Below, in pieces: positions 3,744-23,897 of a stretch of DNA of 25,773 bases. Made by a program: the position numbers and the translations under genes. The stretch comes from a virus. The notes beneath the pieces are model-generated. The model searched no databases, had not been told where the DNA came from, and was given only the letters and a program-made list of their open reading frames with translations. Where the stretch lies: positions 1 through 25,773 of the IMG/VR virus record IMGVR_UViG_3300012920_000232. The stretch is one strand, 5' to 3'. Each line of letters begins with the position of its first letter. Positions within the stretch are counted from its first letter, which is position 1.

Positions 3744-6700
3744 ATGACCGAAAAAATAGTTGTCAAGAAGGTTATAGTAGGCACACCTGTCAAGAAAGTT
3801 ACGGCAGGTTCTTTTGCTATCACAAACCTTGGTGGTGTAAATGTCACTGCTACAGAAAGTGATGGTTCTATACTTGCCTTTAAAAAGACCACCCAGAATT
3901 ACGAAGTAACAAAACTTACTGGTGATAGTGCATCTATACATGTTGCATTTGATAGTGCAAACAGTGAATATGTATTCTCACTTGTAGGTAACAGAATTAA
4001 TCAAAGTCTGATTCCAGATACAGATTCCGCATATGACCTAGGTGCATCCGATAAGAAATGGAAAGACCTTCACCTTAGTGGGGGTACAATAAACTTAGGT
4101 GGTCTTAGAATAAAAGACCAAAATGGTACATTTGTCGTTTCAGACAGTAGTGGAAATACTTTATTACAAAACACTAAATTTATCTCTGTCAAAGGTGACA
4201 CGGATATTCTTGCGTATGATAGTTCAACATCAACAATAACATGGAATGATTCAGATGTAGCAAGAACAGATAGAATCGAAACATTCCACAAAGCAATTAA
4301 AGTTACAGACAGTGCAGAGATTACAAGCAATCTGACTGTGGGTGGTAACCTGAATGTAACAGGTGACCTCGTATATGATGATATGACTGCTGACTCCGCA
4401 ACCTTTAGTGGAAGTGTTGCGATTGGAACGAACCTAAGTGTAGGTGGTAATCTAAATGTCGCAGGTGATTTAGTCTATGATGACATGACTGCTGATAGTG
4501 CCACATTTGCAGGTACAGTTTCAGTAGGTACAAATATTACATCACCATTAGGTCGTATTGTCAACCTTACTGGTGATTCTGCCACAGTCACAAACATTGC
4601 AAATACCCAATTTACTGGGTCTCAAGCAACGATTGATTCTGCTGATATTACCACACTTAAAGTTGGTAATCTAGTAGTAACAAGTGGTGACTCTGCTACA
4701 ATTACAAACATTGCTAACACACAGTTCACTGGTTCTCAGGCAACCTTTGATTCCGCAAATATAGGTGGAGTCTCTATTGAGAACAATAATATTACTACCG
4801 AAGGTAAGATATATTATGCTAATGTGTTTAACAATGAGGGAGACCTTCCAAGTGCAGATGCCTATCACGGTATGTTTGCCCATGTCCATGGAACTGGTCG
4901 TGGATATTTCGCACACGGTGGAGCATGGCATAGATTAGTTGATTCATCAATGACTGATGAACAACAAGTATTCAGATTATTCTCAAGTAATGCTAGAGTT
5001 ACAAATGCACAGATTGATAGTGCCACAGTAACTAATCTAGCAAATACTCAGTTAACAGGTTCACAAGCAACTTTTGATTCTGCGAACATTGGTGGTGTAT
5101 CAATAGAAAACAATAATATCACCACGAGTGGTAAGATATACTATGCTAATGTATTCAGTTCTGAAGGAGACTTGCCAAGTGCAAGTGACTATCATGGTAT
5201 GTTTGCTCATGTGCATGGAACTGGTAAAGGTTACTTTGCACACGCTGGTGCATGGCATCAACTATTAGATAAGTCAACTGCTAATGACAGTGCGACAATA
5301 ACAAATCTAGCAAACACACAATTCACTGGGTCACAAGCAACAATTGACAGTGCAGATATCGGAACTCTAAAAGTTACTGGTAATGCTTCTGTTGTAGGTA
5401 ATCTAGATGTTACTGGTGACCTAAACTTTGATGATGTAACTGCTGACTCTGCATCCTTCAGTGGAACAGTATCAGTCGGAACAAATGTTACATCACCTAA
5501 TGCAACAATAACAAATATTACAAACACACAATTGACAGGTAGTCAAGCAACTCTTGATTCTGCCACAATTACTAACATTAGGTTCGATAATGTAGATGCA
5601 CAGACAACTACAACTATTAGAAACTTATTCTCTGCATCTGGAGACCTATCATATGATAGTGCTTCTGGACAGTTCTCGTTTGATGTAGAATCTGTTTATA
5701 CTAAGGCAAACTTTGATAGTGACCTTGGTGATGCAAACACAGGACAACTTCCAGAAGGAACTAACCTCTATTATACTACTGCAAGAGCAGATAGTGCTTT
5801 TGATGTAAGACTTGCTACCAAATCAACAAGCAATCTAGCAGAGGGTTCAAACCTCTATCATACCGTAGAAAGAGTACAAGATATCGTAGGTGCTATGGTA
5901 TCGTCTAATACTGAGAGTGGTATTAGTGTAACTTACGAAGATGGAGATGGTACTTTAGACTTTAATGTCAATGACCCAACACTATCCTACACAGGAGATG
6001 TGACTGGTTCTGGAACTATGACCGACCTAGGCAATACTAGTATTGCTATGACTATTTCCGCAGGTGCGGTAGACAATGATATGTTATCAGGGTCAATCGC
6101 AAATGCTAAACTTACAAATTCAACTATTACAGTTTCAGATGGTTCAAATACAAGTCCAATAGCATTGGGTGGTACTCTAACATTCTCTGGAACAAGTAAT
6201 GAAGCAACTGTTGCAGAAAATGCAGGAACAATAACAGTAGGATTACCAAGTGATGTCACAGTATCAAATGACTTAACTGTTAGTGGTAACTTGAATGTTA
6301 CTGGTACTACGACTCAAACTGGTTCTGTGGTAACTGATAACAACTTCCAAGGTCTAACTAACTCTAATACAGGAAACGCAACTGACTTTGGTTTCTATGG
6401 TAAGTATGTAGAATCAAGCACAACTAAGTATGCAGGTATTTACTACGATGCATCGACAGACAACACATTTAGATTATTTACAGATACCCAAACAGTACCT
6501 TCAACAACAGTCAATACTGGTGCTACAGGTTATGCTGATGCAAATCTAGTTGTTAACAATATAACAGGTAATGATTTAGTTCTGTCAGGTAATCTGACCG
6601 TCAATGGGACAACAGTAACTAACAGTGCTACCAATACAACTATCGAAGATGCATTGATAGAACTTGGTTCTGGTAATACTGGAGCAAACTCTAATGACCT

Positions 6701-16289: not shown

Positions 16290-16646
16290 ATGTTAGAAGA
16301 AAATGAAGTACAACCTACTGAAGAAGTAGTAGAACCAAATGCAGTAGAAGACTTAATCAACCAAATCAGTGTTGGTGAGTTGAATAAAGCAGAAGGTTCT
16401 TTTAAATCAATCATTCAAGATAAAATGAATGATGCATTGAACGCACAAAAAGTTGCAACGGCAGGACAAATCTTCAATGATGAAGATGAGGACATTGCTG
16501 ATATTAGTGACGAAGAAGTAGAAGAGTTCTTTGCAGACGCAGATATGTCTGAAGAAGAGTTCGATGCTGAAATGGACGAACTAGAAGCAGAGCAAACGGA
16601 AGAGGAAAGTGCTGACGAAGATATCGAACCTACTGACGAAGTTTAA
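16290..16646 (+). CDS. gp67: Acidic prohead core protein (gp67-like)
   Basis: A 118-residue, strongly acidic protein. Residues about 18-63 (VEDLINQISVGELNKAEGSF, then IIQDKMNDALNAQKVATAGQIF) resemble the conserved segment of T4-like gp67 prohead core proteins. The remainder is almost all D and E. The gene position directly after gene 20 matches T4. The start ATG at 16290 is chosen because GGAG at 16280-16283 has six-base spacing; an upstream in-frame ATG at 16260 lies inside gene 20 without support. The product would be an internal scaffold component, later degraded by gp21. Its 3' end overlaps the desaturase start by 38 bases in another frame. Confidence 0.78.
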   Translation: MLEENEVQPTEEVVEPNAVEDLINQISVGELNKAEGSFKSIIQDKMNDALNAQKVATAGQIFNDEDEDIADISDEEVEEFFADADMSEEEFDAEMDELEAEQTEEESADEDIEPTDEV

Positions 16647-17367
16647 CGACTTCTTACTTGTCAACACAGGTAAACTACTACTAAGTGTGTTCTGGGGATG
16701 TCTTGCGTATTTAATATATGATATTGCATACCTTGGCAACTGGCAAACACTTTTGTGGTATCCCTTTGTTGCATTTATAGGTTGGGTAGTAATCTCTGCT
16801 TTTTATCACAGGGCATTGGCACATCCATCATGGGAATGTCCTGATTGGTTAAAATATCCATTCGCATTCTTTGCGCCTGGATTGGGAGTTACTCCTGCGA
16901 TTGTCTGGTGTTCTTTACACAGAGAGCATCACAGACATTCAGATATCGAAGGTAAAGACCCTCACGGGCCTGCCTACAGTTGGTGGAAGAATTTACATAT
17001 ACTTCTATACAATCCGAAGTTTATGTATTCAAAGAACCTACTGAGAGACCCACTCATGGTTGCTCAGATGAAGCAATACTGGAGTTGGTTTCTAATATCA
17101 GTAGCATTCTTTATATCGGTATTCGGTGCTAGTGTATGGGCATTAATGGTTGTTGCATTGACCGCAACACAGATTAGTATCAATATGTTAGGACACTATC
17201 CGATTGGACAAGAACGAAAACAAAACATAAAACAACACATACTCAGTTTAATATACACACCAGAAATATATCACGGACAACATCACGATACACCGAATAG
17301 AGCAAAATTAGGTGCATTTGATGTAGTTTACTACACTTTAATAAGGTTTTTTCCACATAAGTCCTAA
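16609..17367 (+). CDS. Membrane fatty acid desaturase
   Basis: A 252-residue integral membrane di-iron desaturase. All three histidine boxes are intact: HRALAH (67-72), HREHH (104-108, followed by R and H) and HGQHH (222-226). A further H196 in NMLGHYP matches the extra ligand seen in acyl-CoA/acyl-lipid desaturases. Hydrophobic segments at about 22-43, 47-66, 84-103 and 158-194 fit the usual four-helix topology. It would introduce a cis double bond into a fatty acyl chain, probably of the delta-9 class; regiochemistry is inferred. The only start is GTG 16609, close to a GAAGAGG ribosome site and within the end of the gp67-like gene. No in-frame Met occurs before residue 139. It interrupts the usual gp67-gp68-gp21 order and is a likely auxiliary metabolic gene altering host membrane lipids. 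Confidence 0.85.
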   Translation: MLTKISNLLTKFNDFLLVNTGKLLLSVFWGCLAYLIYDIAYLGNWQTLLWYPFVAFIGWVVISAFYHRALAHPSWECPDWLKYPFAFFAPGLGVTPAIVWCSLHREHHRHSDIEGKDPHGPAYSWWKNLHILLYNPKFMYSKNLLRDPLMVAQMKQYWSWFLISVAFFISVFGASVWALMVVALTATQISINMLGHYPIGQERKQNIKQHILSLIYTPEIYHGQHHDTPNRAKLGAFDVVYYTLIRFFPHKS

Positions 17368-20770: not shown

Positions 20771-20793
20771 GTTGGGTCAACCAACCGTTTTTT
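20771..20793 (+). terminator. First of tandem terminators after gene 23
   Basis: Short hairpin GTTGG/CCAAC (20771-20775 and 20781-20785) with a 5-base loop, then CG and six T. It would act with the much stronger hairpin that follows. Confidence 0.5.
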
Positions 20794-20821
20794 AGGGGAG
20801 ACTTCGGTCTCCCCTTTTTTT
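20794..20821 (+). terminator. Strong rho-independent terminator
   Basis: Perfect 9-bp stem AGGGGAGAC/GTCTCCCCT closed by a very stable TTCG tetraloop and followed by a run of T to 20821. It isolates the capsid operon from the island downstream. Confidence 0.95.
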
Positions 20822-20833
20822 GTAAAAAAACGC

Positions 20834-20862
20834 TTGACATTTTATGTTGAACTTGTTATTAT
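20834..20862 (+). promoter_or_regulatory. Sigma70-type promoter P1 with palindromic -10 region
   Basis: TTGACA (20834-20839), 17-base spacer, TATTAT (20857-20862) with an extended TGT element just before it. A 16-base perfect palindrome, TGTTATTATAATAACA, spans 20854-20869, covering the -10 and the likely start near 20869. It heads the 20889-21812 gene group. The first 12 and last 24 bases of the region 20831-20875 are identical to the promoter at 23173-23217. Confidence 0.85.
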
Positions 20863-20888
20863 AATAACATAATGAAGAGAGGTAAACT

Positions 20889-21152
20889 ATGATTAGTAAA
20901 ATACTTAAACAGGAACTCCTCAACCTGAACTCTGTTTCGGAGTTAAATGAGGTAATCGCATTTGCAAGAGATGCAATTGCAATAAATGCCAAAGCATCGA
21001 TTGCTGTTGGTGATGAAGTTTTCGTAGTCCAAAAGACTAAGAGAACTGTTGGTGTTGTTGAGAAAGTCAACATCAAAAAAGCATTGGTTAAAATCCCTAG
21101 TAAGGGCAATGCAGTTTACAGTGTTCCATTATCTATGTTGGAGGCTGCGTGA
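20889..21152 (+). CDS. Small KOW/SH3-like protein
   Basis: An 87-residue protein. The N-terminal 35 residues form a helix (LKQELLNLNSVSELNEVIAF). The C-terminal half is a small beta barrel pattern, VGDEVFVVQKTKRTVGVVEKV, with spaced valines and lysines followed by KKALVKI, as in KOW or SH3-like domains that bind RNA, DNA or RNA polymerase partners. The domain call is by pattern only. AGAGG at 20878-20882 lies six bases before the ATG, and promoter P1 is just upstream. Its stop overlaps the next gene's GTG (GTGA), so the genes are translated together. A regulatory role is possible but unproven. Confidence 0.75.
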   Translation: MISKILKQELLNLNSVSELNEVIAFARDAIAINAKASIAVGDEVFVVQKTKRTVGVVEKVNIKKALVKIPSKGNAVYSVPLSMLEAA

Positions 21153-21400
21153 TTCTAAGAAACGGACTGGTCGGTTCGTTTCATCACGACCTTTATGCGT
21201 TTGATGAAGAACACTTCGAAGGGGAAGAACTCGAACTTCCCCTTAATGCTAAAGAAATGCAGTTAGCATTTTTACAACAAGATAACAAGTCATGGCAAAT
21301 GATGGTTGACTCTGTTCATCATAGAACAGGTTTCATGATTGCAGGAAACATGAACATTGATTGGATTGTTGTTAATGGAGTCCCTCACAAGTTTCACTAA
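21149..21400 (+). CDS. Small protein of unknown function
   Basis: An 83-residue protein starting at GTG with GGAGG at 21140-21144, four bases upstream. It is rich in H, D, E and aromatics (SFHHDLYAFDEEHFEGEELELP near the start, SVHHRTGF in the middle, VPHKFH at the end). Seven histidines could bind metal, but no known arrangement is visible. There is no signal peptide or membrane segment. It overlaps the previous gene (GTGA) and the next (TAATG), marking it as the second member of the P1 operon. I do not recognise the family. Confidence 0.7.
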   Translation: MILRNGLVGSFHHDLYAFDEEHFEGEELELPLNAKEMQLAFLQQDNKSWQMMVDSVHHRTGFMIAGNMNIDWIVVNGVPHKFH

Positions 21401-21666
21401 TGATTGACCAAATGATTAAGGTCAGAATGACCAATGGCAAGGATATCTACGGAACTAATCTAGATATCGGTAGATATTCTGTCAAGCATAACTGTGAAGT
21501 AGAGCATGAATATGAACATGTCAATCCTTCTACAGTTTACAATACATTTGAATATGTGGGTAATAGAAAACCATCACCCATCTCTGTATCTGTTCCATTT
21601 GATTATAGAATGAACAGAGCAATGGGTACATTCAACACTCGTGGAGTTAACTTAGACAAATGGTAG
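21400..21666 (+). CDS. Small protein of unknown function
   Basis: An 88-residue, soluble, mixed-charge protein with an initial strand-turn-strand pattern, MIKVRMTNGKDIYGTNL, and a later VSVPFDYRMNRAMGTFNTRG segment. No recognised motif. The ATG overlaps the preceding stop (TAATG) with no clear ribosome site of its own, so it is probably translated by coupling. The third member of the P1 operon; its end overlaps the start of the small membrane protein gene. Confidence 0.68.
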   Translation: MIDQMIKVRMTNGKDIYGTNLDIGRYSVKHNCEVEHEYEHVNPSTVYNTFEYVGNRKPSPISVSVPFDYRMNRAMGTFNTRGVNLDKW

Positions 21667-21812
21667 ATTGGATAATAGCAATAGGTGCGAATGCACTAAT
21701 CGTATATGCATGTTACAAGTTTGTAACATTTGGTATATCTGGTGGATTTCAACGCCTTTTCAGTAAAAAGAAAAAGAAGAAAGATGTGAATTCAGGTCAA
21801 CTATTCGGTTGA
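21660..21812 (+). CDS. 50-residue single-pass membrane protein with poly-lysine tail
   Basis: A small open frame starting at an ATG that overlaps the previous stop (ATGGTAG). It encodes a hydrophobic helix, WIIAIGANALIVYACYKFV (residues 4-22), then FGISGGFQRLFS, then six lysines in a row and a short polar end. The pattern of one membrane helix followed by a positively charged cytoplasmic tail is typical of tiny phage membrane proteins. Coupled overlap with the upstream gene supports reality. Its TGA stop lies inside the TTGACA -35 box of the next promoter. No function can be assigned; host membrane targeting is an inference. Confidence 0.65.
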   Translation: MVDWIIAIGANALIVYACYKFVTFGISGGFQRLFSKKKKKKDVNSGQLFG

Positions 21813-21837
21813 CATTTTACGCTACATAGTGTATAAT
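21809..21837 (+). promoter_or_regulatory. Consensus sigma70 promoter for the methyltransferase
   Basis: Exact TTGACA (21809-21814), 17-base spacer, exact TATAAT (21832-21837). Transcription should start at about 21843-21845, essentially at the ATG 21845. It lacks the palindrome of the other two island promoters but shares their TTGACATTT start. Confidence 0.85.
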
Positions 21838-21844
21838 GGTCGTT

Positions 21845-23179
21845 ATGAATCAAGAATTATATGCTCTTCTAGGTAAGTGTGCAGATAGCACTGGTCTTCC
21901 TGTTATGGATGAGACCCAGTTTACCGATGTCACAGAACGGTATGGTAAGGATGTCTTTAGAAAGACTCTTGCTGAATATATCTTTCAAGAGAGACCACCA
22001 TTTCCTGCTAATCAGGTTACTGAGAAACGCAGGGACGATGCGTGGTGGAAACTAAAACAATACGATATCTGGAAGGGTGTCACCCATATTAATAACCAAC
22101 AAAGGGAAGTCATTGAGAAGTTTGATGACTACAAGTATCCCTTTAGTGAACATGGACTAGGAGTAATCGATGCTCCTGCTAGACCTTATAATGATGTATC
22201 TGATTGGTTTATGAAACCCCTGCGTTGGCAGTGTAACAGTTACTCATTCAAAGCACCTCTCACCGTATGGAACGAAGGAACTGCTCATGAGATATGGGCA
22301 TGTCTTGGTGCTATATGGAGAGGTATAAACGATGTCAAGAAAGTCACAGTCCGTGACCTTGATGGGAATGAAAAAGATAAGTTGGTCGGTGGTGTCTTGC
22401 AACAAAACTCGTATGTTGCTACCTTCCGTTTGGCAACATACATTGCCACCCAGTTCAAACCCAGTATGGCAAAGACCATCTATCAGATGACTAATGCCAA
22501 AAGAGTTCTTGATACATCTATGGGTTGGGGTGATAGACTTACAGGATTCTACGCCTCAGACGCAGAAGTTTATATTGGATGTGACCCCAACCCTAATACC
22601 TTTGACAAGTATCATGATATGATACCATACCTAGAGAAGATGTCTGGTAAGCAAAAGACTGTCCATATGTTTAACTGTGGTGCAGAAGACCTACCATGGG
22701 ATAGAATTACAGACATTGATTGTGCCTTTACATCACCACCGTACTTTGCTACAGAAAGGTACAACGAAGGTGGTAAGAATGAGGATGCACAATCGTGGAA
22801 GAAGTTCTCTGAATATGAGCAATGGAGAGATGATTTCTTCCTACCAGTATCACAAAAAACCTTTGATTCACTATCTAAGGATGGTCATATGATTATCAAT
22901 ATCATGAATCCAAAGGTAAAGAATGTAGTCTATCCGTCTTGCGATGAGTTAGTAGACCTGCTCAGACCCCATTTTAAGGGTCAGATAGGGATGCGTATCA
23001 TGCAAAGACCACAGGGTAAGTCTGTATTCAAGGACGAAGAAGGTAACTTCGATAAGGAGCAACTACAGGATTTCTTTGACCAAATGTACATTGAGAACTG
23101 TTGGTACTTCGGAAAAGAGGACACACCAGACATATTTTTGAGGGCAGAAAAAAACAATTTAGATGATTTTTTCGCTTGA
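21845..23179 (+). CDS. DNA methyltransferase (SPPY type)
   Basis: A protein of about 444 residues with a class I SAM-dependent methyltransferase core in its second half. It has motif I VLDTSMGWGDRLTGF (221-235), an acidic strand end YIGCDPNP (243-250), NCGAEDLPW (277-285) as motif III, and catalytic motif IV DCAFTSPPYF (292-301). A (T/S)PPY tetrad is typical of amino-methyltransferases acting on N4-cytosine or N6-adenine in DNA; target and base are unknown. The order is motif X-like region, I, then IV. The first 200 residues show no known domain. An in-frame ATG at 21836 overlaps the -10 box and is unlikely. ATG 21845 would be almost leaderless with no ribosome site; a later Met at residue 21 is an alternative. 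It may protect phage DNA from host restriction or mark host genes. Confidence 0.82.
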   Translation: MNQELYALLGKCADSTGLPVMDETQFTDVTERYGKDVFRKTLAEYIFQERPPFPANQVTEKRRDDAWWKLKQYDIWKGVTHINNQQREVIEKFDDYKYPFSEHGLGVIDAPARPYNDVSDWFMKPLRWQCNSYSFKAPLTVWNEGTAHEIWACLGAIWRGINDVKKVTVRDLDGNEKDKLVGGVLQQNSYVATFRLATYIATQFKPSMAKTIYQMTNAKRVLDTSMGWGDRLTGFYASDAEVYIGCDPNPNTFDKYHDMIPYLEKMSGKQKTVHMFNCGAEDLPWDRITDIDCAFTSPPYFATERYNEGGKNEDAQSWKKFSEYEQWRDDFFLPVSQKTFDSLSKDGHMIINIMNPKVKNVVYPSCDELVDLLRPHFKGQIGMRIMQRPQGKSVFKDEEGNFDKEQLQDFFDQMYIENCWYFGKEDTPDIFLRAEKNNLDDFFA

Positions 23180-23204
23180 CATTTCCTGCTAGTCTTGTTA
23201 TTAT
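23176..23204 (+). promoter_or_regulatory. Sigma70-type promoter P2 with palindromic -10 region
   Basis: TTGACA (23176-23181), 17-base spacer, TATTAT (23199-23204), extended TGT. The same 16-base perfect palindrome as P1 spans 23196-23211. The -35 box contains the TGA stop of the methyltransferase gene. It drives the 23232-23882 group. Confidence 0.85.
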
Positions 23205-23231
23205 AATAACATAATGAGAAAGGAACTGATT

Positions 23232-23537
23232 ATGGAAAACAATTTTGGACTGATTTTTGCTGAGAATTGTGAACCTACTGAAGAGAATGTTCAAGGGTTT
23301 GCTAATTATTGCATGGACTTCTACGGTGAGAATAATGACGATGCTCTTTATCCTACCGAAGGATTTACCATGGGAACTGCCATGATTGCCATCAATGAAT
23401 ATTTGACTGGTAACTATCCTTGTTGTGAAGAGAACTTTGAAAATGGAGTTCCTACTCATCTGTATGGTGGTGGTGATACCATTGACCGTGAGAAAGTTCT
23501 TGGAATCTTTTTGGAACAAATGGAGATGGTAGCATAA
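23232..23537 (+). CDS. Highly acidic small protein of unknown function
   Basis: A 101-residue protein with about 19 acidic and only 2 basic (K/R) residues, and four cysteines (C13, C27, C64, C65). There is no membrane segment. ATG 23232 is preferred over ATG 23214 because AAAGGAA at 23219-23225 has six-base spacing and the likely transcript start is near 23211. Such charge is seen in DNA-mimic and anti-restriction proteins, but no specific family is recognised, so that is only a hypothesis. It is the first gene of the P2 unit and shares TAATG with the next gene. Confidence 0.72.
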   Translation: MENNFGLIFAENCEPTEENVQGFANYCMDFYGENNDDALYPTEGFTMGTAMIAINEYLTGNYPCCEENFENGVPTHLYGGGDTIDREKVLGIFLEQMEMVA

Positions 23538-23719
23538 TGTGTGGTGCATTTACTGGTGAATACGATTTTGATGGTTTTGTAGTTAAAGAAACTGTCACTG
23601 GAAAAATTCTTGCAGGGTTCTTTGACCCAATCAAGACTATCGAAGAAGCAGAAGAACTTCAAGTAGGATTGAAGAACCGTTTTAATGTTAAAACTATTAT
23701 AGAGGGATATTATGAATGA
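23537..23719 (+). CDS. Small protein of unknown function
   Basis: A 60-residue acidic protein (MCGAFTGEYDFDGFVVKETV at the start, then a helical KTIEEAEELQVGLKNRF). It starts in a TAATG overlap with the preceding gene and ends within the next gene's start region, so it is embedded in a three-gene coupled set. The pattern of two beta strands and one helix suggests a small compact fold. No family recognised. Confidence 0.65.
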   Translation: MCGAFTGEYDFDGFVVKETVTGKILAGFFDPIKTIEEAEELQVGLKNRFNVKTIIEGYYE

Positions 23720-23882
23720 TGCAATGAATGCAAAACATGCTCGACACTTGACTCGCATCCTTAATGTTAAGGTTGCGTTGTCAAAATGTGAAGAGTCAAA
23801 GAGTGAGTGGGGCATTGAATACTGGTCAGGAGTTCTGAAAGCACTTCAGAATAAACGACTAGATGGTGTCAAGTTCCACTAA
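23712..23882 (+). CDS. 56-residue basic protein of unknown function
   Basis: A short frame from ATG 23712 with AGAGGG at 23701-23706, five bases upstream, overlapping the preceding gene's end by eight bases. The product is basic and mainly helical (KHARHLTRILNVKVALSKCEE, then YWSGVLKALQNKRLDG). The good ribosome site, coupling and tight fit before the late promoter at 23890 support a real gene. It is the last gene of the P2 group. No family recognised. Confidence 0.62.
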   Translation: MNDAMNAKHARHLTRILNVKVALSKCEESKSEWGIEYWSGVLKALQNKRLDGVKFH

Positions 23883-23889
23883 AAAATCG

Positions 23890-23897
23890 TATAAATA
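23890..23897 (+). promoter_or_regulatory. T4-type late promoter (TATAAATA)
   Basis: Perfect late box eight bases after the island's last stop codon. Initiation near 23903 would give a leader of about 17 bases containing the AAGAGGA ribosome site. It marks the return to the late programme. Confidence 0.78.

Follow-up and report, generated by a model that had tools for sequence, protein, structure and literature searches.

Why does a T4-like phage carry a run of eight open reading frames (ORFs) behind promoters of the bacterial sigma70 type between its capsid gene gp23 and a gp3-like tail gene, and what might these genes do? The question is raised by IMG/VR record IMGVR_UViG_3300012920_000232, a 25.8 kb virus record of a marine, uncultured T4-like phage, which was analysed over its whole length of 25,773 nucleotides and is called the window here. 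Among the best matches listed, its gp23 DNA is 65–74% identical to that of marine T4-like phages. An original prediction, made from the sequence, had likened the island (its eight ORFs lie at 20889–23882) to an early, host-directed or anti-defence cassette transcribed independently of its late neighbours, and this interpretation is partly supported by our analysis. All eight predicted ORFs were confirmed. We consider it reasonably probable that the island is an early cassette in an accessory slot that a clade of such phages has between gp23 and gp3, which would be read by host sigma70 and hold exchangeable cargo, with an orphan DNA methyltransferase that most likely marks phage DNA against restriction and small ORFs that most likely serve host takeover or counter-defence. 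The borders, putative promoters and largest gene of the slot are as follows.

20794–20815, plus strand: strong hairpin terminator (stem of 9 pairs with a UUCG loop, T-run), which closes the gp23 unit and bounds the slot on the left.
20834–20862, plus strand: P1, TTGACA-17-TATTAT promoter for ORFs A–D (exact; 11/12 matches to consensus; 55 bp 5′ of ORF A).
21809–21837, plus strand: P2, cargo-type promoter TTGACATTTTACGCTACATAGTGTATAAT for the methyltransferase (12/12 matches to consensus; fits the cargo-promoter pattern common to DruA and C5 methyltransferase genes).
21845–23179, plus strand: orphan DNA methyltransferase of 444 aa, exchangeable cargo of the slot, with an N6_N4_Mtase domain (Pfam PF01555, E 4.9e-6) and an SPPY motif.
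23176–23204, plus strand: P3, TTGACA-17-TATTAT promoter for ORFs E–G (exact; P1-like; overlaps the methyltransferase stop codon).
23890–23897, plus strand: exact TATAAATA, which serves gp3 as late promoter and bounds the slot on the right.

Exact TTGACA-17-TATNAT sites were found at 20834, 21809 and 23176 and nowhere else in the window on either strand, followed by a return to TATAAATA at 23890, exactly as predicted. The chance expectation for such sites in the window is 0.32, and three were reached in 2 of 100 dinucleotide shuffles. The terminators before P1, which had been called strong and tandem, are indeed tandem (20771–20785 and 20794–20815), but only the one at 20794–20815 is strong, the hairpin at 20771–20785 being weaker. 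To place these promoters in context, relatives were gathered via the methyltransferase, ORF E, gp23 and gp3, together with five named isolates (L-numbers denote the relatives' loci). Removal of intervals covered over more than 80% of their length at 95% identity reduced 95 gp23-downstream intervals to 63 non-redundant loci, of which 36 reach uvsY and are complete, the window being counted in both numbers, and 27 are cut by a contig end. With a sigma70-like promoter defined in the relatives by at least 11 of 12 consensus matches, the gp23–uvsY interval of the 36 complete loci contains 59 such promoters in 115,833 bp (shuffle average 4.0), and the sequence up to the end of gp23 in the same loci contains 4 in 173,069 bp (shuffle average 4.5). 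At least one site is present in 24 of the 36 intervals. A scan of these loci over their whole length listed 60 sites, 48 of which stand 27–66 bp 5′ of a called ORF. Among 300 accessory ORFs of the interval, 71 have a sigma70-like site within 90 bp on the 5′ side and 11 have TATAAATA; for uvsY, the sigma70-like site is present within 90 bp in 6 of 35 cases.

The late promoter shows the opposite placement. TATAAATA lies within 90 bp 5′ of gp3 in 27 of 27 testable loci, and no sigma70-like site lies within 90 bp of gp3 in any of them. Since its overall number in the window is not above chance (43 sites at up to one mismatch, 45 expected), TATAAATA is informative by this placement. These results point firmly to host sigma70-type promoters, and not the late TATAAATA, as the likely drivers of the island. 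The promoter class, the terminator before the island and the late promoter after it also agree with the predicted separation from late transcription, and the timing of island transcription would be early. The idea that exact TATAAATA marks late genes in general was rejected: it holds for gp3, but the motif is rare at the other virion genes tested (gp18 1/1, gp19 3/19, gp20 4/24, gp21 1/42, gp22 0/29, gp23 0/56), which may be co-transcribed or use variants. In L058, L059, L068, L076, L084, L086, L089 and L093, gp3 lies on the strand opposite gp23 with a late TATAAATA 5′ of it on that strand; gp3 is also opposite in L021, L022 and L041, whose right end is open.

The genomic context of the slot bears on what "early" can mean. 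The island had been described as embedded in the late structural cluster. It is indeed flanked by gp23 and gp3, but in the relatives its position is the junction between the virion run gp18–gp23 and the replication run uvsY-uvsW-gp55-gp47-gp46-gp45, with gp3 the one late gene recognised on its far side. Since a single weak terminator-like site, located within gp3, is all that was detected from ORF G to uvsY, gp3 and uvsY may be read early from P3 as well. We looked at sigma70-like promoters in eight relatives (records G001–G008, fetched parts only; G005 and G008 share many promoters and look closely related), removing near-identical promoters before counting (93 to 82 in the eight records, 89 to 45 for the interval promoters). 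The 82 distinct sites with a spacing of 17 comprise 31 before replication genes, 35 before other ORFs, 2 inside core genes and 14 with no clear ORF. None precedes the virion markers gp18, gp19, gp20, gp21, gp23 or gp3, although virion genes outside these six could be among the 35 other ORFs. A late or structural origin of the island was rejected on this ground and because none of the island ORFs convincingly matches a virion family, the one virion-type match of the methyltransferase being a weak one to a PHROG "minor tail protein" (E 0.086); a sigma70-like site at 1 of 19 gp19 starts in a second locus set speaks the other way.

The same promoter class thus precedes replication genes, including gp43, gp44, gp45, gp46, gp47, gp55, gp61 and uvsY, and this weighs against our reading in that "early" could be "middle". 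The sites would then be middle or constitutive promoters, and the island the leading edge of a replication module rather than an immediate-early cassette. In the accessible text of the paper on the phage Melnitz, sigma70 early and TATAAAT late promoters are predicted and no identifiable middle promoters are reported (PMC9004378), and the same picture is given for T4-like cyanophages in what is accessible of PMC5780444; if Melnitz and other marine T4-like phages lack identifiable middle promoters, the two classes are inseparable by sequence alone. A G in the spacer at about −23 is commoner in interval promoters (41/45) than in replication-gene promoters (18/31; Fisher p 0.0015), hinting at a subclass, although a difference in timing is not implied by it. 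We regard the middle-module explanation as possible but less probable than not by a clear measure. The spacer TG motif as a signature of the slot alone was weakened by the G in those 18 of 31 replication-gene promoters. The palindrome GTTATTATAATAAC was dropped as a special operator: it is exact at P1 and P3 only, non-significant at 3 mismatches and partly a by-product of the extended −10, and we made no use of it.

Having located the promoters of the putative early cassette, we asked how its content varies. The original prediction had proposed a comparison of the gp23–uvsY interval across relatives and expected hypervariable content, which was found. Between gp23 and gp3 there are 100 to 4920 bp (n = 39 loci), compared with 12–44 bp for gp22–gp23 (n = 39) and 12–54 bp for gp21–gp22 (n = 35); gp20–gp21 (497–1612 bp, n = 27) and gp3–uvsY (19–3022 bp, n = 27) are also variable. 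The called proteins of the 63 loci, 339 in number, fall into 94 clusters, of which 47 have a single member. By Pfam, scanned with one representative per cluster, the large slot genes are DruA (15 loci), D12 methyltransferase (7) and the window-type N6_N4 methyltransferase (2), and more rarely a C5 methyltransferase (1), another N6_N4 methyltransferase (1) and a protein with GmrSD_N and HNH (1, in a DruA locus). At least one named cargo family is present in 26 of 63 loci (16 of the 36 complete ones), and no locus combines two of the five families DruA, D12, window N6_N4, C5 and second N6_N4. The cargo lies between gp3 and uvsY, not between gp23 and gp3, in four DruA loci, the C5 locus and the second N6_N4 locus; four further loci could not be placed. 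The DruA domain was matched in the relatives' slot genes (PF14236, E 2.5e-10 for the representative) and is absent from the window. No helicase-sized protein stands beside DruA on the slot maps, although no search aimed at Druantia partners such as the DruE helicase was made.

Some of these cargo genes share a promoter. The pattern TTGAC-N7-GCTANATANNGTATNNT is common to the promoters of slot DruA genes, the window methyltransferase and the C5 methyltransferase, and its distinctive core GCTATATACTGTATAAT is present before the window methyltransferase, most slot DruA genes and one C5 methyltransferase. In the collected loci, all 20 distinct sites of the pattern precede cargo (DruA 16, window family 3, C5 1). 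Because the pattern had been written after these promoters were seen, IMG/VR was then scanned with it, giving at least 119 stretches from at least 80 loci, with at least 19 of 80 contigs already among the collected ones. Among the 80 loci listed, the pattern stands before a cargo family in 58 (DruA 38, C5 methyltransferase family 18, window family 2). Among these listed matches, the strict ACTGTAT core has cargo behind it in 47 of 51; counted by distinct 29-mer, 28 of 46 sites precede cargo, and 20 of 23 with the strict core. The nearest core gene of all 38 listed DruA sites is gp3 or gp23, and the 18 listed C5 sites comprise 10 adjoining hsp20, 3 nearest gp43 or gp61, 1 by gp3 and 4 unplaced or far from markers. 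The promoter thus follows the cargo type across two genome positions.

Swap junctions could be aligned directly. L276, with a C5 methyltransferase, is alignable to the DruA loci L272 and L288 through the gp3 end, the promoter and the leader as far as the start codon, beyond which the ORFs are unrelated. L253, with a member of the window methyltransferase family, is alignable to the DruA loci L273 and L241 through a divergent upstream promoter and the cargo promoter, and the sequences split just after the −10. These alignments are direct evidence that ORFs were exchanged behind a fixed promoter, and they show that the largest gene of the slot is exchangeable cargo, different ORFs having recombined in directly behind a conserved, cargo-specific promoter. 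That a single specific promoter is shared by three DNA-acting families without relation to each other, and at two positions in the genome, makes it unlikely that the interval is a generic hypervariable ORFan region without common function, in which DNA-acting cargo would be a chance occupant among many, although the 94 clusters with 47 singletons and the 37 of 63 loci without any named cargo family (27 of 63 being cut by a contig end) would suit such a region. A bolder proposal, which we hold to be rather doubtful, is that marine T4-like phages have a regulon of interchangeable cargo genes acting on DNA, marked by a dedicated promoter/operator of the form TTGAC-N7-GCTATATACTGTATAAT whose −10 is overlain by a TATAC-N-GTATA inverted repeat. 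In this regulon, DruA-like proteins and C5 and N6/N4 methyltransferases would be swapped as functional equivalents at gp23–gp3–uvsY and in the hsp20–gp43 region, one trans-acting factor would control all of them, and by implication the phage DruA-like proteins would protect or mark phage DNA as methyltransferases do.

We next considered the methyltransferase of the window. Its assignment to N6_N4_Mtase, which agrees with the original prediction, is above the PF01555 cut-off by a small margin (27.1 versus 26.7 bits), and each of the 6 family members scanned matches PF01555 with E no higher than 0.01. SPPY is invariant in these 6 members and fits [DNS]PP[YF], the catalytic motif of DNA methyltransferases; presumably it indicates N4-cytosine rather than N6-adenine as the target. 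The long N-terminal part falls outside the Pfam match. The predicted structure, of moderate quality (pLDDT 63), resembles S-adenosylmethionine (SAM) methyltransferases generally, CmoB best, no relative in the Protein Data Bank (PDB) was found by sequence, and the defence library gave weak Type II methyltransferase matches. Among 50,697 phage records there is no full-length relative, nine records matching over at most 39%. In marine viral contigs the family has at least 500 confirmed members (at least 599 stretches), and one pattern-based scan of 84,980 cellular genomes gave 6 loci, all in metagenome-assembled genomes. Compared with the near-identical contig L005, pN/pS is 0.08 (gp23 0.09; counts are small), which indicates purifying selection on the gene. 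The orientation of the family varies: it is that of gp23 in the window, L004, L005 and L010 and the reverse in L006–L009 and L044.

Outside the clade of the window, 51 of 84 family copies lie directly 3′ of gp43, 64 of 84 lie within four ORFs of it and 12 others have hsp20 as their only marker. Among the 76 copies with enough upstream sequence (2 of 78 loci were dropped for lack of upstream sequence or a start), a sigma70-like promoter was found before 2 and the cargo core before none. The slot copy is therefore atypical of the family in its place as well as in its promoter, and the simplest reading is that it gained its promoter upon moving into the slot. The usual place beside gp43 would also suit an enzyme of phage DNA metabolism (replication, repair, packaging or late-gene control) whose move into the slot was neutral shuffling. 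We give this little credence: the gene is swapped for DruA or a C5 methyltransferase in the slot, and L040 and L035 have no large cargo at all, so the slot methyltransferase is dispensable. At the usual place, in L011, L013, L143, L157 and similar loci, the methyltransferase is often followed by a gene that by eye is PLP-enzyme-like or acetyltransferase-like, and such neighbours might hint at a more complex DNA modification.

In the reading we prefer, that of an accessory slot with an early cassette, host RNA polymerase would read P1 (ORFs A–D), P2 (methyltransferase) and P3 (ORFs E–G) after DNA entry, and the gp23 terminator and the gp3 late promoter would separate the island and late programmes. 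The slot would be made up of self-contained promoter-plus-gene units. The methyltransferase would mark newly replicated phage DNA, so that progeny are most likely shielded from restriction by the host or by competitors, and ORFs A–D and E–G would most likely be accessory proteins of host takeover or counter-defence, which is the weakest part of the proposal. The predicted host-directed or anti-defence role is partly supported, by the methyltransferase and by its exchange for DruA-like and other methyltransferase genes. Several further observations weigh against this reading. At the stringency used, 12 of the 36 complete intervals have no sigma70-like site, and 229 of the 300 accessory ORFs have none within 90 bp, though many of these may be in operons. 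The cargo pattern stands before another ORF (16) or no ORF (6) in 22 of the 80 listed IMG/VR loci, and it is absent before the slot D12 genes (0/7), in 2 of 15 DruA loci (L087 and L073, the latter a fragment) and before the second N6_N4 gene. No restriction enzyme was seen in the window, and the small island ORFs have no convincing match in Pfam, PADLOC or NCBIfam, nor to any anti-defence family there. That the cargo instead targets competing phages, by superinfection exclusion or phage-borne defence, is improbable: DruA-like, GmrSD_N plus HNH, and HNH proteins resembling bacterial defence parts do occur in the same slot, but the window has a lone methyltransferase without a recognisable nuclease, and a family found mostly beside the DNA polymerase fits DNA marking better than attack.

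An accessory slot of this kind shares features with known systems. Orphan DNA methyltransferases occur in phages, and the window likewise has a lone PF01555 methyltransferase without a partner nuclease; it differs in lacking a full-length relative in the phage records, in its long N-terminal part and in having its own promoter in a slot. The gene shuffling in T4-like phages mediated by PeSL cassettes, as described in the accessible part of PMC4503421, also involves early promoters beside shuffled accessory genes and swapping next to a regulatory element. Here, upstream stem-loops are not enriched (10 of 47 promoters, near-identical ones having been removed; random mean 6.5, maximum 11), P1 having one and P2 and P3 not being among those found, the swapped loci are homologous in the promoter and leader themselves, and their cargo acts on DNA. 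Membership of the slot among PeSL cassettes was rejected: an early promoter lies by shuffled genes, but the composite of promoter and stem-loop is not enriched. In pelagimyophages and cyanomyophages, conserved core modules are likewise split by hypervariable regions (PMC7029224). The regions named in the accessible text of that paper are VrlC–gp14 and a region separating the replication module from the structural one, and a gp23–gp3 slot with methyltransferase or DruA cargo does not appear there. In archaeal viruses, early regulatory sequences were used to find anti-defence genes (PMC11065993, accessible part). Accessory counter-defence genes are there likewise recognisable by an early regulatory sequence that is conserved; that system is archaeal and experimentally validated, whereas ours has bacterial-type promoters and predicted DNA-acting enzymes. 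The accessible parts of PMC12458937 and PMC12753301 hold nothing on the gp23–gp3 locus, and a partial literature search, with subscription papers mostly outside it, found no publication on a gp23–gp3 slot with methyltransferase/DruA cargo or on the promoter of such a slot.

Homology is a poor guide to the counter-defence genes of uncultured ocean phages, and the fixed borders and recognisable cargo promoter of the slot would allow discovery by sequence search: find the promoter and read the next gene. To our knowledge, the biochemical role of DruA is unsettled, and the interchangeability of DruA-like proteins and DNA methyltransferases behind one promoter offers a testable hint on it. The junction alignments also provide natural before/after pairs for gene swapping behind conserved promoters in T4-like phages.

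The small island proteins, with positions on the window, are these.

20889–21152, plus strand: ORF A, 87 aa, basic; hypothetical homologues in the phages HTVC008M and Melnitz; pN/pS 0.20 versus L005.
21149–21400, plus strand: ORF B, 83 aa; no match in the 50,697 phage records; intact in L005 and L004.
21400–21666, plus strand: ORF C, 88 aa; no match in the phage records; pN/pS 0.05 versus L005.
21660–21812, plus strand: ORF D, 50 aa; by eye, a hydrophobic stretch at the N-terminus and a tail rich in Lys; conserved in L004 and L005.
23232–23537, plus strand: ORF E, 101 aa from this start, very acidic; phrog_7799 (function unknown), E 4.1e-12; in 6 other slot loci (profile E 5.9e-8).
23537–23719, plus strand: ORF F, 60 aa, seen repeatedly in the slot; matched (E 2.9e-8) by a profile made from slot homologues outside the window.
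23712–23882, plus strand: ORF G, 56 aa, small family often 5′ of gp3 in relatives; profile of the 18-locus cluster c2, E 6.8e-8.

Among the slot loci searched, ORFs A–D were found in near-identical contigs only, and ORFs E, F and G have counterparts in further relatives. ORF A had been called KOW-like, which no family supports: it has weak matches to PHROGs of unknown function and hypothetical homologues, and belongs to no known family. The predicted acidity of ORF E, which leads the three-gene set, was confirmed (pI 4.1, net charge about −17). Its predicted model (pLDDT 71), compared with regard to a DNA-mimic anti-restriction protein, has no PDB match with E below 3, and no PDB relative was found by sequence; in P-SSM4 its homologue lies within a run of small hypothetical genes. 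The pN/pS values of ORFs E and F are 0.33 and 0.87 versus L005 and 1.01 and 0.33 versus L015, the counts being small and the values dependent on the pair. ORF G has one match in the defence library (E 0.026).

Some further observations concern the slot and its surroundings. The P1 region (20831–20882) and the P3 region (23174–23223) of the window, and those of L005, match crosswise at about 85% over 51–52 bp, and in L034 and L111 several promoters within one phage carry a nearly identical leader, as if promoter–leader units had been duplicated. Between the gp23 terminator and P1, L005 has about 340 bp (4645–4982) that are absent from the window at 20820/20827 and encode a small protein with YRGV repeats besides carrying a late promoter and a glutamine riboswitch (RF01739, 52.5 bits). 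In an Rfam scan of the window and 22 loci, the riboswitch was also found 3′ of gp23 in L050, L052, L060 and L061, that is, with L005, in 5 of 23 sources, the window having none. Transfer RNA (tRNA) genes were found in 11 of the 23 (L016, L017, L022, L025, L034, L043, L050, L052, L061, L094 and L099), mostly just 3′ of gp23 or near cargo, where they could serve as recombination sites. The gp20–gp21 gap, variable in the relatives as noted above, holds in the window an ORF (16609–17367) with histidine boxes that was judged by eye to be fatty-acid desaturase-like. At the left end of the window, positions 40–1407 encode a 455-residue ORF of short GNFTGNY/RTRT-type repeats.

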